Shown: positions 18,964 to 26,101 of the stretch, in pieces
How the letters are laid out: every line of letters starts with the position of its first letter
Position numbering within the stretch: the stretch's first letter is position 1
Program-made: the position numbers and the translations under genes
Origin: Bacilli bacterium
GTDB taxonomy: Bacteria > Bacillota_I > Bacilli_A > ML615J-28 > CAG-698
Length of the DNA stretch: 50,546 nt
NCBI GenBank assembly: GCA_017450215.1
Contig: JAFSVH010000056.1
Span: 1-50,546, forward strand
Direction of reading: 5' to 3'
Notes under the pieces: model-generated
The model's database searches: none
What the model saw: only the letters and a program-made list of their open reading frames with translations
Told to the model about the DNA's origin: nothing

Positions 18964-18984
18964 AATAAATGAGGCAAATTAATA

Positions 18985-20601
18985 ATGAAAAAATTAGTTA
19001 TTTTTGATTTGGATGGTACATTACTTAATACAATAGATGATATTACTAATTCACTTAATAGATCACTTATTAAAGTTGGTCTTTATTTAATTAGTAAAGA
19101 TCAAGCTAAGTATTTTGTAGGTAGTGGAGTTGATATTTTAATTGAAAGAGTATTAAGATATGAACTTAAAGACAATTACGATTCAAATAAAGATAACTAT
19201 TTTTTTGCTTTAAAAGATGCTTATGTAAAAGATTATAGTCTTAATTGTAGGATTGATACTAAACCATATGATGGCATTAAAGAATTAATTATAGAATTAA
19301 AGAAAAAAGGGATTAATGTTGCTGTGTTATCAAATAAACCACATGAAGATACTATTAATGTAATTAATTATTATTTTGGTGAAGATTTCTTTGATATTGT
19401 ATATGGCAAAAAGCCACATAATAAGATTAAACCATCTCCTGATGGTGCTTTTGAACTTATTAAAGAATTAGAAAATAGATATTCTAATAGATATAAAAAA
19501 AGCGATATTATGTATGTAGGTGATACATCTGTAGATATGGAAACAGCTAAAAATATTGGATGTGAATCAATTGGCTGTCTTTGGGGTTTTAGAAGTATTG
19601 ATGAACTTACACTTGCTACATATATAGCAAATAATCCACTTGATATTTATGATTTAGTTAATAAGAATTATGATGGAATTATAATATTAAATAAGCATGA
19701 AAATATTAGCAGTAATAATATTATCAATGATTTAAAGCATGAATTAAATAAAGATAAATTCCCAATTTCTAAAATTGGTCACTGTGGAACTTTAGATCCT
19801 ATTGCTACTGGTGTGATGGTTGTTTTAATTGATGGTGCAACTAAATTAAGTAATTATTTAATGAGCGATGAAAAAGAATATGATTGCTTAATGGAACTGG
19901 GAAAGTCTTATGATACTTTAGATATTACAGGTAAAATCATCGATGAAAGAGATTTAAATCAAAACGATTTAAATTATGTAATTAATTATATCGATTCAGT
20001 ATTTAACTCCTTAAGTGGTGAAAGATTACAAACTCCACCAATGTATTCTAGTATAAAGAAAGAAGGAATTAAATTATATGAATATGCAAGGTGCAATGAA
20101 AAAATAGAAGTTAATGATAGATTAATTAATATTAAAAATATTAAATTAATTGATGATATTAAATTAATTGATAATCAAATATATATATCATTCCATAGTG
20201 TTGTATCTAAAGGAACATATATTCGTTCATTATGTAAAGAGATTGGTGATAAATTTAATATGCCTGCTAGCTTAGTTAAATTAAATAGAACAAGAAGTGG
20301 TAAATTTGATTTATCAATAGCAAAAAGAATTGAAGAAATCATTAATGATAATAAGAATAATAAATTAGAATTCATTAACATGATTGATTGCATGAAATTA
20401 ATTGGAATTAAAACAATTGAGATTAATGATTATTTATTTAATCGTGTTAAGAATGGTAATTTAATTAGACTTGCTTTAAATGATAAAGAGGTAGGATTAA
20501 TTTATAATAATCAGCTTATTGCTTTATATGAATTAAATGATAAAGATAATAATAATTATAATAATAAAAACTCCTACAAAGTTAAAATATTATGGAGATA
20601 A
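18985..20601 (+). CDS. truB: Fusion: HAD phosphatase domain + tRNA pseudouridine-55 synthase (TruB)
   Basis: A single 538-residue frame with two complete-looking enzymes. Residues 1-225 form a HAD phosphatase of the phosphoglycolate phosphatase type: FDLDGTLLNT (Asp8, Asp10), SNKP near 116, and GDTSVDMETAKN near 179. Residues about 228-538 form TruB: YDGIIILNK, then IGHCGTLDPIATG (265 onward, catalytic Asp271), YDTLDITG near 306, TPPMYSSIKKEG near 345, and SKGTYIRSL near 410. TruB normally starts with Met at this point; here the residue is Tyr and no in-frame start is nearby, so both domains come from one polypeptide. Next downstream is ribF, the usual truB neighbour. Confidence 0.9.
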   Translation: MKKLVIFDLDGTLLNTIDDITNSLNRSLIKVGLYLISKDQAKYFVGSGVDILIERVLRYELKDNYDSNKDNYFFALKDAYVKDYSLNCRIDTKPYDGIKELIIELKKKGINVAVLSNKPHEDTINVINYYFGEDFFDIVYGKKPHNKIKPSPDGAFELIKELENRYSNRYKKSDIMYVGDTSVDMETAKNIGCESIGCLWGFRSIDELTLATYIANNPLDIYDLVNKNYDGIIILNKHENISSNNIINDLKHELNKDKFPISKIGHCGTLDPIATGVMVVLIDGATKLSNYLMSDEKEYDCLMELGKSYDTLDITGKIIDERDLNQNDLNYVINYIDSVFNSLSGERLQTPPMYSSIKKEGIKLYEYARCNEKIEVNDRLINIKNIKLIDDIKLIDNQIYISFHSVVSKGTYIRSLCKEIGDKFNMPASLVKLNRTRSGKFDLSIAKRIEEIINDNKNNKLEFINMIDCMKLIGIKTIEINDYLFNRVKNGNLIRLALNDKEVGLIYNNQLIALYELNDKDNNNYNNKNSYKVKILWR

Positions 20602-20641
20602 TTTATTACGGAGATAATTTATTATGGAGATAATTTATTAT
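20594..20641 (+). repeat. Three tandem 16-bp copies of a Shine-Dalgarno-containing unit
   Basis: The unit ggagataatttatta plus one base occurs at 20594-20609, 20610-20625 and 20626-20641. Copy 1 contains the stop of the HAD::TruB gene and copy 3 contains the ribosome site and start of ribF. The other two copies carry extra GGAG sites; copy 2/3 also makes an out-of-frame ATG at 20624. Confidence 0.9.
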
Positions 20642-21599
20642 GAAAATAATTAGAATTGATGATTTAAATAATCTTAATAGTATTAATAATAATATTAATA
20701 ATAATATTATCAATAATACTATTATTACTATTGGTGTTTTTGATGGTATTCATTTAGCACATAAAGCTTTAATTGATACAATGATTAAATATAAACAAAA
20801 TCATAATATTTATATTGGTGTTATGACTTTTGATCCTCATCCTGATTTTGTTTTAAGTAAGCGAGATAATGATGGTTATATTACACCTATAAATCAAAAG
20901 ATCCAGATGTTTGGAGATTTAGGTATTGATTATTTATTTTTAATTAATTTTAATAAGAATATTGCTTCACTTGATTATGAATCATTTTATGATAAATTCT
21001 TAAAAGATTTTAAATTTTTTGTAGTTGGTTCTGATTTTAGATTTGGTTATAGAGCATTAGGAGATGCTAAATACTTAAAAGAAAAAAAGAATGAATCAAT
21101 AATTTTAGATGAAATTAAAAAAGATGATGAAAAAATATCATCATCATTAATTAGAGAATTATTGAATAAAGGTGAAATTAAAAAAGTAAATAATATATTA
21201 GGTCATCCTTATGAATTGTTTGGTAAAGTTGTAAAAGGTGCTCATATTGGTACTAGTTTAGGTTTTCCAACTGCTAATATTGATTTAAGTGATGATTATA
21301 TGAATATTAGAAGTGGTGTTTATTTATCAAAAGTATGCATTAAAGATGACAAACATGAATATTTTGGTATTTGCAATATTGGTAATAATCCTACATTAAA
21401 TTATGTTAATCGTAAAAGATTAGAAGTTCATATAATTGATTATAATTATCAATTATATGATAAAGAAATATCGGTTGAATTGATTGATTATTTAAGAGAA
21501 GAAAAGAAATTTGATAATAAAGAAGAATTAATTAATCAAATAAAGAAAGATCGCGATAATGCAATTGAGATATTGAATGTAAATAGAGGTGAAGAATGA
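20640..21599 (+). CDS. ribF: Bifunctional riboflavin kinase / FAD synthetase
   Basis: A 319-residue cytoplasmic enzyme that makes FMN and then FAD. The N-terminal FAD synthetase part shows TIGVFDGIHLAHKAL near 32, MTFDPHPDF near 62, VVGSDFRFG near 129, and SSSLIRELL near 163. The C-terminal riboflavin kinase part shows GTSLGFPTANIDL near 205, SGVYLSKV near 225, and NIGNNPT near 245. The N-terminus has a low-complexity Asn/Ile stretch encoded by repeated aataat. It supplies flavin for the Nfn, Rnf and related enzymes in the window. It overlaps mtnN by four bases. Confidence 0.94.
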   Translation: MKIIRIDDLNNLNSINNNINNNIINNTIITIGVFDGIHLAHKALIDTMIKYKQNHNIYIGVMTFDPHPDFVLSKRDNDGYITPINQKIQMFGDLGIDYLFLINFNKNIASLDYESFYDKFLKDFKFFVVGSDFRFGYRALGDAKYLKEKKNESIILDEIKKDDEKISSSLIRELLNKGEIKKVNNILGHPYELFGKVVKGAHIGTSLGFPTANIDLSDDYMNIRSGVYLSKVCIKDDKHEYFGICNIGNNPTLNYVNRKRLEVHIIDYNYQLYDKEISVELIDYLREEKKFDNKEELINQIKKDRDNAIEILNVNRGEE

Positions 21600-22297
21600 A
21601 AATATTGATTGTAGCTGCAATGGATAATGAGATTGCTATTGTTTTGGATAAATTAAAAGAGAATAAAATTGATGTAAAAGAAATTGAAGGATTTAAATTC
21701 TATTTAGGTAGTTTATATAATAAAGAAATCATTTTAGTTCAAAGTGGTGTTGGTAGAATTAATTCTGGAATTTTAATTACTATTGCAAAGCTTAATTTTG
21801 ACTTTGATTTAATAATTAATATTGGAATTGCTGGTGGTCTTAAAGAATTATCAATTTATGATATTGTAGTTGGTGAAAAGACTATTTATGGTGATGTAGA
21901 TGTTACATCATATCTTAATAAATATACTTATGGACAAATGTCAGGTTGCCCTAGATATTTTGAAGGAAGTAAAAGAGTACTTGATTTGATTAAGGGTGAT
22001 AAAGATGTACATTTTGGGACAATTTGTTCATGTGATAAATTCACAACTAGTGATGAAGAAGTAAGAAAATTAATTAATAATTATTTTTCTGATCTCAATG
22101 TTTTAGCATTCGATATGGAGAGTGCTTGCTTTGCTCAAGCATGCTATCGCTTGAGTATTGATTTTATTGCTATTAGATTCATAAGTGATATTATCGGTAG
22201 TGCCTTCCAAAGTGATGTTTATGCGAAGAATGAAGAAGATGTACAAAAATTTGAAAAATGTAATAATTATATTTTAAGGATTCTTGAAAAGATATAA
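21596..22297 (+). CDS. mtnN: 5'-methylthioadenosine/S-adenosylhomocysteine nucleosidase
   Basis: A 233-residue cytoplasmic enzyme of normal family length. It cleaves adenine from methylthioadenosine and S-adenosylhomocysteine. Seen: ILIVAAMDNEIAIV at the N-terminus (catalytic Glu12), QSGVGRINSG near 55, NIGIAGGL near 77, and FDMESACFAQACY near 174 (substrate-binding Met-Glu). The ATG overlaps the ribF stop (ATGA), and a terminator follows, so it ends the long nadK operon. Confidence 0.92.
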   Translation: MKILIVAAMDNEIAIVLDKLKENKIDVKEIEGFKFYLGSLYNKEIILVQSGVGRINSGILITIAKLNFDFDLIINIGIAGGLKELSIYDIVVGEKTIYGDVDVTSYLNKYTYGQMSGCPRYFEGSKRVLDLIKGDKDVHFGTICSCDKFTTSDEEVRKLINNYFSDLNVLAFDMESACFAQACYRLSIDFIAIRFISDIIGSAFQSDVYAKNEEDVQKFEKCNNYILRILEKI

Positions 22298-22603: not shown

Positions 22604-22903
22604 ATGGCAATTGTTCAATTTAGAGTAGATGATGATTTGAAAATGCAAGCTACTTCTGTATATGAAAAATTAGGAATTGATTTGTCAACTGCTTTAAGGA
22701 TGTTTATGAAAAGAAGCGTATTAGAAAATGGGATTCCTTTTACTATGGTTTTAAGTAATGAACCATATGATGCTTCAAAAGCAATTGATGCAATGCGTAG
22801 TATGCAAAGAAAATCAGAAGAAAACGGTAATTCGGAAATGACTTTAGATGAAATTAATGAAGAAATACGCCTTGCGAGACTCGAAAGGAAAAAGAGAAAG
22901 TGA
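22604..22903 (+). CDS. RelB/DinJ-family antitoxin
   Basis: A 99-residue protein with strong ribosome site ggaggtgaat. It has the ribbon-helix-helix N-terminus (FRVDDDLKMQATSVYEKLGI, then DLSTALRMFMKR) and the conserved tail EMTLDEINEEIRLAR. It is a paralogue of the antitoxin at 6720. Its last codons overlap the GTG start of a PIN-domain toxin, the standard arrangement for co-translation and autoregulation. Family RelB/DinJ is more often paired with RelE/YafQ toxins; pairing with a PIN toxin is less common. Confidence 0.9.
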   Translation: MAIVQFRVDDDLKMQATSVYEKLGIDLSTALRMFMKRSVLENGIPFTMVLSNEPYDASKAIDAMRSMQRKSEENGNSEMTLDEINEEIRLARLERKKRK

Positions 22904-23316
22904 AATATTATGCAGTAATTGATACTAATGTAATAGTTTCTTCATTTTTAAAAGAAGGATCTATTCCTGATCGAATTGTGTCTTTAGCCTTGAATGGTCC
23001 TATAATTCCATTAGTTAATGATGAAATTATTAGTGAATATACTGAAGTACTTACTAGAAACAAATTTGGTCTTAGTGAATCGGAAGTAAAGGTTTTTCTT
23101 AATGAATTTATTAAAAGAGCATTATTCTTAGATAAAACTAAAACAAATGAAGATTTTGATGATCCTGATGATATTGTGTTTTATGAAATTATTTTAACAG
23201 CAAGATCTGCCTCAAATGCTTATTTAATTACTGGTAATAAGAAACATTATCCCATAAAATCATTTGTTGTTACACCAAGAGAAATGATTGAAATAATAGA
23301 AAAAGATAATAAATAA
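22900..23316 (+). CDS. PIN-domain toxin (putative ribonuclease)
   Basis: A 138-residue protein of the 'putative toxin component, PIN family'. The GTG start overlaps the antitoxin stop (GTGA). Seen: YAVIDTNVIVSSFLK with Asp7 as first metal ligand, VNDEIISEYTEVLTR near 40 (Glu), DPDDIVFYEI near 91 (acidic ligands), and AYLITGNKKHYP near 107, the usual C-terminal acidic/polar site with Asn in place of the common Asp. PIN toxins cut RNA; the target is unknown. A terminator follows. Confidence 0.88.
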   Translation: MKYYAVIDTNVIVSSFLKEGSIPDRIVSLALNGPIIPLVNDEIISEYTEVLTRNKFGLSESEVKVFLNEFIKRALFLDKTKTNEDFDDPDDIVFYEIILTARSASNAYLITGNKKHYPIKSFVVTPREMIEIIEKDNK

Positions 23317-23851: not shown

Positions 23852-26101
23852 ATGGCTTGGAAAATTGCTATTGATGGACCTGCTGGTGCAGGTAAAAGTA
23901 CAGTTGCAAAAATAATTGCAAATCAACTAAATGGTGAATATTTGGATACTGGAGCAATGTATCGTGCTATAGCTTTGAAAAGTATTCGTGTTGGTGTTGA
24001 TTTTAGCGACTTAAGTGCTATAACTGATGATGATTTTGAATTTGTCAATTCAACAGATGTTGTTTTTAGTGGTGGTGACATCTATTTGGATGGTGAATGC
24101 GTATCTGATTTAATTAGAACACCTGATATGTCAAGCAAGGCATCATTCGTTTCTAAATTTGGAGTTGTTAGAACTAGATTAGTTTATTTGCAACAATTGA
24201 TGGCTAAGAGTATTAATGTAGTCATGGATGGTAGGGACATCGGTACTGTTGTTCTTCCTGATGCTGATCTAAAGATATTCTTAATTGCATCCCCTGTTGT
24301 AAGAGCTGAAAGAAGACAAAAACAATTAATAGAAAAGAGTGGTAGTGCACCTGATTTAGATACAATTATTCAAGAGATTAATGCTAGAGACTTACAAGAT
24401 TCAACTCGTGCTATCAGCCCATTAAAAAAGGCTGATGATGCTGTAGAGATAGACTCATCATATCTATCAATTGATGAGGTAGTACAAAAAATTTTATGTT
24501 TATTTAAAGAGAGAGGTTTAATTATGGAAGACGTTAAAACACTTAACGAAGAAACAAAGGATGCTGAAGTTAAAGAAGAAGCTGTAGAACAAGAAGAGAA
24601 AGTGGAATCTGTTGAAGAAAGCTCTCAAGAGACTGAAGCAAAATCAGAAGAAAAAGCTGAAGCAAAATCAGAAGAAAAAGCTGAAGCAAAAGCAGATGCA
24701 AAAGAAATGCAAACAGTTGAAGGTGTTGTTGTTGAGGTTCAACAAAGCGAACCTGAAAAGACAAACAAGAATGGTGAAGTTGTAAAGAAGGCTAGAGAAG
24801 CTAGAGTTTTAGTTAAACTAGATAATGACCGAGAAGGTTTCTTATATATGAAAGAAATCGCTGATTGTGAATCTGAAGAAGATTTATTCTTCAATTATGT
24901 TCCTGGTGATAGAGTAAAACTAGTTGTAAAGAAAGTTTATGAAGATGGTGGTAAATTATTATTATCTCAAATCTTACTTGCAAAGAAAGAAAGCTTAAAA
25001 GATTTCCAAAAAGTTATCGATGATCACGGAACTTTCACAGCTAAAGTTGTAAAACTTATTAAAGTTGGTTTAATTTTAGAATATAATGGTTATTCATGCT
25101 TATTACCAACATCTCAAGTTAACGCTAAAGAAGAGGAACTTGAAGGTTTAGTTGGAACTGAAATGGAAGTAGCTCCTATTAGAGTTGATTTAAACAGAAT
25201 CAGATTAATTGTTTCACAAAATGTTGCTAATGCTATTAAGGCTAGAGAAGAAAAGAGTGTTTATATCGCTTCCTTAAAAGTTGGAGACGTTGTAAAAGGT
25301 ACTGTTAAGAAATTAGAAGAATATGGTGCTTTTGTTGAACTTGAACATGGTGTTGAAGGTTTATTACACGTTTCTGAAATAGAACACAATAGAGTCGTTA
25401 AGATTGAAAAAGTATTAAATGTTGGCGATGCTGTTGAATGCAAGATCATCAAATTAGATGAAAAGCATATTGGCTTATCAAGAAAAGCATTACTTCCTAA
25501 TTACTGGAAAGATTTCATTGATAGTGCTAAAGTCGGTGATGAAGTTGAAGGTGAAATTGCTGAAATTAATAAATTCGGTGTAGTTATTAATTTAGCAACA
25601 GAAATTCAAGGCTTCTTACCAAAGAGCGAATTTGCTTATGAAAGAGATGTTCAAGTTGAAGATTTCTATAAAGTTGGCGATTCAATCAAGACTATGATTA
25701 TTCAATTAGATTCTAGTAAGAAGAGAGTAATTCTTTCTAAGAAGCAATTACCAGATAATCCATGGAATACAGTTCAACTTAATACTGGTGATGTTGTTAA
25801 GTGCGTTACACTTAAACAATTACCTACAGGAGTTAAGTTTACTACATTAGGTATTACAGGATTCTTAAATGCTGTTAATTATGGCGATAAGACTGAATTT
25901 GCACCTGGTGATGAATTCGAAGCTAAAGTTAGATTATATGACCCTAAACAATATAGATTGACAGTTACTGTTAAGGAACCACGTCCAAGAGAAGAAAGAA
26001 TTAGAAGATCAAATGATGTATCTGAAATGAGCAAATATCTAAGAAATCAAGAAAAGATGAATGCTACATTTGCTGATTTTCTAGAAAAGGACGAGAAATA
26101 A
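23852..26101 (+). CDS. cmk: Fusion: cytidylate kinase + S1-domain protein (RpsA-like)
   Basis: A 749-residue frame. Residues 1-224 are a full cytidylate kinase: GPAGAGKST P-loop at 9-17, DTGAMYRA near 32, MDGRDIGTVV near 125, and RDLQDSTRA near 173. Met225 opens a Glu/Ala/Lys-rich linker (225-290), then five S1-like domains follow to about residue 700; the third (VGDVVKGTVKKLEEYGAFVE) is the most canonical. S1 proteins bind mRNA on the ribosome. cmk and rpsA are adjacent genes in many bacteria; here no stop lies between them. A good ribosome site (GAGAGG, about 24509-24515) precedes ATG 24524, so a separate S1 protein could also be made. Confidence 0.92.
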   Translation: MAWKIAIDGPAGAGKSTVAKIIANQLNGEYLDTGAMYRAIALKSIRVGVDFSDLSAITDDDFEFVNSTDVVFSGGDIYLDGECVSDLIRTPDMSSKASFVSKFGVVRTRLVYLQQLMAKSINVVMDGRDIGTVVLPDADLKIFLIASPVVRAERRQKQLIEKSGSAPDLDTIIQEINARDLQDSTRAISPLKKADDAVEIDSSYLSIDEVVQKILCLFKERGLIMEDVKTLNEETKDAEVKEEAVEQEEKVESVEESSQETEAKSEEKAEAKSEEKAEAKADAKEMQTVEGVVVEVQQSEPEKTNKNGEVVKKAREARVLVKLDNDREGFLYMKEIADCESEEDLFFNYVPGDRVKLVVKKVYEDGGKLLLSQILLAKKESLKDFQKVIDDHGTFTAKVVKLIKVGLILEYNGYSCLLPTSQVNAKEEELEGLVGTEMEVAPIRVDLNRIRLIVSQNVANAIKAREEKSVYIASLKVGDVVKGTVKKLEEYGAFVELEHGVEGLLHVSEIEHNRVVKIEKVLNVGDAVECKIIKLDEKHIGLSRKALLPNYWKDFIDSAKVGDEVEGEIAEINKFGVVINLATEIQGFLPKSEFAYERDVQVEDFYKVGDSIKTMIIQLDSSKKRVILSKKQLPDNPWNTVQLNTGDVVKCVTLKQLPTGVKFTTLGITGFLNAVNYGDKTEFAPGDEFEAKVRLYDPKQYRLTVTVKEPRPREERIRRSNDVSEMSKYLRNQEKMNATFADFLEKDEK
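24524..26101 (+). CDS. Possible independently translated S1 protein nested in the cmk fusion
   Basis: ATG 24524 is in frame with the fusion and preceded by agagagaggtttaatt, as good a ribosome site as any in the window. The product would be 525 residues, starting MEDVKTLNEE, with the linker and five S1 domains. The joint falls exactly at the normal end of cytidylate kinase (about 224 residues). Whether both forms are made is inference. Confidence 0.5.
   Translation: MEDVKTLNEETKDAEVKEEAVEQEEKVESVEESSQETEAKSEEKAEAKSEEKAEAKADAKEMQTVEGVVVEVQQSEPEKTNKNGEVVKKAREARVLVKLDNDREGFLYMKEIADCESEEDLFFNYVPGDRVKLVVKKVYEDGGKLLLSQILLAKKESLKDFQKVIDDHGTFTAKVVKLIKVGLILEYNGYSCLLPTSQVNAKEEELEGLVGTEMEVAPIRVDLNRIRLIVSQNVANAIKAREEKSVYIASLKVGDVVKGTVKKLEEYGAFVELEHGVEGLLHVSEIEHNRVVKIEKVLNVGDAVECKIIKLDEKHIGLSRKALLPNYWKDFIDSAKVGDEVEGEIAEINKFGVVINLATEIQGFLPKSEFAYERDVQVEDFYKVGDSIKTMIIQLDSSKKRVILSKKQLPDNPWNTVQLNTGDVVKCVTLKQLPTGVKFTTLGITGFLNAVNYGDKTEFAPGDEFEAKVRLYDPKQYRLTVTVKEPRPREERIRRSNDVSEMSKYLRNQEKMNATFADFLEKDEK
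24635..24682 (+). repeat. 24-bp tandem duplication in the Cmk-S1 linker
   Basis: Two identical 24-base copies (24635-24658 and 24659-24682) encode EAKSEEKA twice; a partial third follows. Confidence 0.85.

Follow-up and report, generated by a model that had tools for sequence, protein, structure and literature searches.

The open frame at 18985-20601 on the plus strand of the window, the whole stretch of 50,546 nucleotides analysed here, encodes a HAD phosphatase joined to the tRNA pseudouridine synthase TruB, and has very probably arisen by an end-to-end joining, specific to this lineage, of two adjacent housekeeping genes that are translationally coupled within the HAD-truB-ribF-mtnN cluster. 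The fused gene and its surroundings comprise the following features:

18971..18974, plus strand: GAGG, Shine-Dalgarno-like in sequence, 10 nt upstream of the ATG of the fused gene.
18985..20601, plus strand: HAD::TruB fused gene, 538 amino acids (open frame, Pfam, NCBIfam).
18985..19659, plus strand: HAD phosphatase half, residues 1-225, Gph/phosphoglycolate-phosphatase-like, with motifs I-IV (HAD_2; PDB and fold match 2hi0).
19660..19671, plus strand: joint N226-K227-N228-Y229, where the HAD stop codon and the TruB start codon sit in relatives.
19672..20598, plus strand: TruB half, residues 230-538, tRNA pseudouridine(55) synthase (TIGR00431 above cut-off; PDB 1k8w/1r3f).
20592..20639, plus strand: three tandem copies of a 16-bp repeat unit, ATGGAGATAATTTATT, that cover the truB stop and the ribF start region.
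20640..21599, plus strand: ribF (FAD synthetase/riboflavin kinase), next in the conserved cluster (Pfam, neighbourhoods).
21596..22297, plus strand: mtnN/pfs-type nucleosidase, next in the conserved cluster, with a 4-nt overlap with ribF (Pfam PNP_UDP_1, neighbourhoods).

The frame starts with ATG and runs without interruption through both domains. Pfam places HAD_2 at residues 5-197 (E 2e-34) and TruB_N at residues 256-413 (E 1e-41), and the alignments recover all four HAD motifs, I (DxDGT, D8/D10), II (S/T, S116), III (K149) and IV (GDxxxD, D180/D184), the residues of which are conserved in relatives. Within the TruB half the active-site residues G265-H266, the catalytic-type D271, Y299 and R414 are present, the last three aligning with E. 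coli TruB. On this point the frame, the Pfam and NCBIfam matches and the alignments bear out the initial annotation, which had described one uninterrupted frame with the key motifs of both enzymes. The TruB half passes the TruB equivalog TIGR00431 (182.3 bits against a cut-off of 151.45) and matches the PDB sequences 1r3f/1k8w with an E of about 2e-29. For residues 1-225 the best PDB sequence match is the putative phosphoglycolate phosphatase 2hi0 (E 5e-28). This half stays below both phosphoglycolate phosphatase equivalog cut-offs of NCBIfam (116.6 of 225 and 96.2 of 180 bits) and is therefore named only Gph-like here. In the genome itself (2.05 Mb, 141 contigs, 94% complete) no second match to either half was found at E <= 0.001.

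The protein is homologous over the full length of TruB (TIGR00431; E. coli 1k8w, T. maritima 1r3e) and has the same fold, the GHxGTLDP motif with the catalytic-type Asp and the KEY and GTYIRS motifs. In contrast to TruB, it carries a HAD domain at its N-terminus and an insertion of 5 residues ahead of the GH motif, which the alignment also shows in the only other genome of the genus (G001) and in the genus g14. With Gph-like HAD hydrolases (2hi0, 2yy6, 2nyv), among which the best sequence and fold matches are found, it has motifs I-IV and the helical cap in common, whereas its C-terminus runs on into TruB.

At the joint, the protein reads ..DIYDLVNKN-Y229-DGIIILNK..; the assembly has AATAAGAATTATGATGG in the region 19600-19720. 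Tyr229 (19669-19671) occupies the site at which relatives have the TruB Met, so that the replacement of this Met by Tyr, as proposed earlier, holds. The nearest in-frame starts upstream of the TruB part are ATGs 46 and 55 codons away, both inside the HAD core, and the next Met downstream of the joint lies past the catalytic D271. A separate TruB product initiated within the frame, already considered unlikely in the initial annotation, was rejected on these grounds. Since there is neither a stop codon nor an own start for the second domain, the sequence describes a single-polypeptide fusion, and HAD::TruB would be made as one chain.

An AlphaFold2 model built with 29 relatives displays two well-formed domains with a mean pLDDT of 93. 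The linker is very short in the model (about residues 226-230), with hardly any residues between the last HAD helix (218-225) and the first TruB strand (231-237). The pTM of 0.70 for the fused protein would fit a mutual orientation of the two domains that is not strongly fixed. Foldseek returned E. coli TruB 1k8w (E 9e-27) and the phosphoglycolate-phosphatase-like 2hi0 (E 2e-19).

To place the fusion among its relatives, 28 genomes of the family, namely the present genome and 27 relatives, were searched for both genes and their joints were read. The genes keep the order HAD-truB-ribF-mtnN in the family, and in most cases the stop codon of one overlaps the start codon of the next; nearly all family genomes have ribF and mtnN after truB, with short overlaps. 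HAD and truB are adjacent but separate on one strand in 12 of the 27 relatives, where mostly the HAD stop codon overlaps or touches the truB start codon; in G001 the overlap amounts to 8 nt, ATGAATGA. This supports the suggestion that adjacent genes were fused by chance. In most of the remaining family genomes the nearest HAD relative lies elsewhere (e.g., about 12 kb away in G012, and likewise apart in G010 and G015). A single HAD::TruB frame was found in three family genomes, the present one and two of genus g14 (G014 and G023, with 509 and 513 amino acids), the latter two without a second copy of either half. At the order level TruB_N is matched in 37 genomes, of which 3 have the long frame. 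When 392 genomes of the wider group, a draw that left out G023, were searched with a profile of the fused protein, both halves were matched without a stop in the present genome and G014 alone. A pattern scan for close relatives in named genomes matched only a contig of G025 (uncultured Bacilli bacterium) and, in a Spirochaetaceae MAG, a distant HAD; viral contigs gave no match, and no plasmid record reached 80% coverage of the query. As a side observation, truB of G018 (L002 / L091) contains an in-frame TAG which splits the catalytic domain and may reflect a decayed gene, an assembly error or an unusual reading.

The two fused genes of g14 differ in 30% of their residues, and the fused frame is kept, with gaps only at the N-terminus and none at the linker. 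Over the whole gene dN is 0.20 and dS 0.78, with similar values in both halves, which shows that selection acts on both domains. Since the frame is conserved in this way between two species, the fused architecture is real in g14.

How often the genes were joined was addressed with a four-gene tree (HAD, TruB, RibF and MtnN, 1036 columns). In this tree the present genome groups with G001 (88/84), and both stand beside g14 (88/90), so that the fused genomes do not form one clade. Forcing a fused-only clade costs 9.1 log units (AU p 0.039), which weakly favours two separate joinings, and two events also agree slightly better with the joints, as neither the length nor the sequence is the same in the present gene and in g14. 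A tentative alternative, which we consider possible though not probable, is that the common ancestor of the present genus (g1) and g14 already had the fusion and that it was split again in G001. It would be in line with the single clade formed by the present genome, G001 and g14 and with the TruB insertion common to all three; the tree topology test speaks weakly against it, as do the unlike joints, yet two changes are needed on the tree whether the genes were joined twice or were joined once and parted again in G001.

A sequencing or assembly error was considered as well, in which two overlapping genes are really present and one lost base joins them in a MAG-like assembly. The species is represented by one genome assembly, the genome of the same genus has separate overlapping genes, and one inserted base at the joint can yield such genes. 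This last property appeared convincing at first. However, of 2000 joints of equal composition generated by codon shuffling, 1813 (about 91%) also have at least one such one-base solution, and both g14 joints have 4-6 of them, which makes the property uninformative and led us to discard it as a sign of error. Furthermore, the joint is not a homopolymer, and among the ORFs of the window scanned with Pfam no recognised domain is split by a frame break. According to the initial annotation, two genes with an intervening stop in relatives, together with a sequencing error in the present reading, would refute the fusion. Separate genes were indeed found in the 12 relatives mentioned, but the fusion recurs as an open frame in two species of another genus, and the architecture as such is therefore not an artefact. 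For the present species, judged from one assembly, the fusion is likely and an error unlikely.

A functional reason for the fusion was considered too. Here, the HAD domain would assist TruB or the metabolism of pseudouridine, for instance through removal of a phosphorylated product, and a role in dephosphorylating a nucleotide by-product had been suggested for it. Adjacency is kept in several clades of the family and the fused state occurs in two lineages, which would agree with such a role. TruB, however, isomerises uridine 55 in place within the tRNA, and to our knowledge it releases no nucleotide, which leaves no substrate for a clean-up role of the HAD domain. By structure as well as by family, the nearest matches of the HAD half are phosphoglycolate-phosphatase-like, and its gene is only loosely linked to truB, being found apart from it in several family members. 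In G006 the HAD gene is joined to glycerate kinase instead. The by-product role was rejected on the chemistry of TruB and the loose linkage, and a functional fusion of this kind is highly improbable. A selected bifunctional enzyme, in which HAD regulates or is co-localised with tRNA pseudouridylation, is likewise highly improbable.

The preferred reading, the end-to-end joining of coupled neighbours, is accompanied by other joinings of the same genes. The fusion in G006 is a glycerate kinase::HAD protein of 575 amino acids (L082:3078-4805, plus strand) that contains the same phosphatase, and in G019 and G025 glycerate kinase and HAD are adjacent but separate. Glycerate kinase as a neighbour of HAD in genus g6 would fit a role in small-acid phosphate metabolism. 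Family f11, which belongs to the same class, has in three genomes a VanY::TruB protein of 470-475 amino acids, confirmed by Pfam, in which a VanY-type D-Ala-D-Ala carboxypeptidase precedes TruB and is joined to its N-terminus:

L081:2804-4219, minus strand: VanY::TruB.
L078:917-2329, minus strand: VanY::TruB.
L079:1000-2427, plus strand: VanY::TruB.

The change of fusion partner from lineage to lineage speaks for gene order and overlap, rather than a biochemical tie to TruB, as the factors that determine what gets joined, and it points to an occasional end-to-end joining of translationally coupled genes.

Mechanistically, the HAD stop codon of the ancestor would have overlapped or abutted the TruB start codon, as it still does in relatives. 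An indel at the overlap may then have brought both genes into one frame, with loss of the HAD stop and of the TruB Met. The product would most likely be one polypeptide with two independent active sites, of which, as predicted from sequence, the TruB domain would make pseudouridine 55 in tRNA and the HAD domain would hydrolyse a small phosphate ester in a phosphoglycolate-phosphatase-like manner. The joining itself was probably near neutral or would at most give equal dosage of both enzymes.

The tandem 16-bp copies at the truB-ribF joint, together with an Asn-rich (AAT-repeat) stretch near the N-terminus of RibF, suggest that the DNA around the cluster is slippage-prone. Further downstream, a RelB-like antitoxin and PIN-domain toxin pair (22604-23316) lies between mtnN and cmk, whereas in several relatives mtnN is followed by rpsO and pnp. 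The window also contains a second fusion-like gene (23852-26101, plus strand, 749 amino acids), in which cytidylate kinase is followed by S1 RNA-binding domains; it scores above the cut-off for cmk and above that of no single bifunctional NCBIfam model.

The fusion of overlapping operon neighbours is a well-known kind of event. Fused and overlapping adjacent genes as well as translational coupling are discussed in a systematic study of prokaryotic frame transitions (PMC3711429). The NCBIfam family "bifunctional cytidylate kinase/GTPase Der" is comparable to HAD::TruB in that both combine, in a single frame, two complete enzymes whose genes are neighbours. No name for a HAD and TruB pair occurs among the NCBIfam matches of the fused protein, and among the papers searched none deals with this architecture, in agreement with the earlier remark that no common HAD::TruB fusion is known; it is apparently undescribed so far.

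In itself the HAD::TruB fusion reveals no new function. Rather than a new enzyme system, it most likely represents a minor joining of genes that has happened repeatedly, although the fact that two neighbouring lineages have it could also point to a slight advantage under selection. Such a protein may be labelled by one half only in annotation pipelines, and HAD or TruB could then be called missing in these genomes. For the family, the genes form a small natural series from separate and distant through overlapping to fused, which can serve to study how operon neighbours become one protein.
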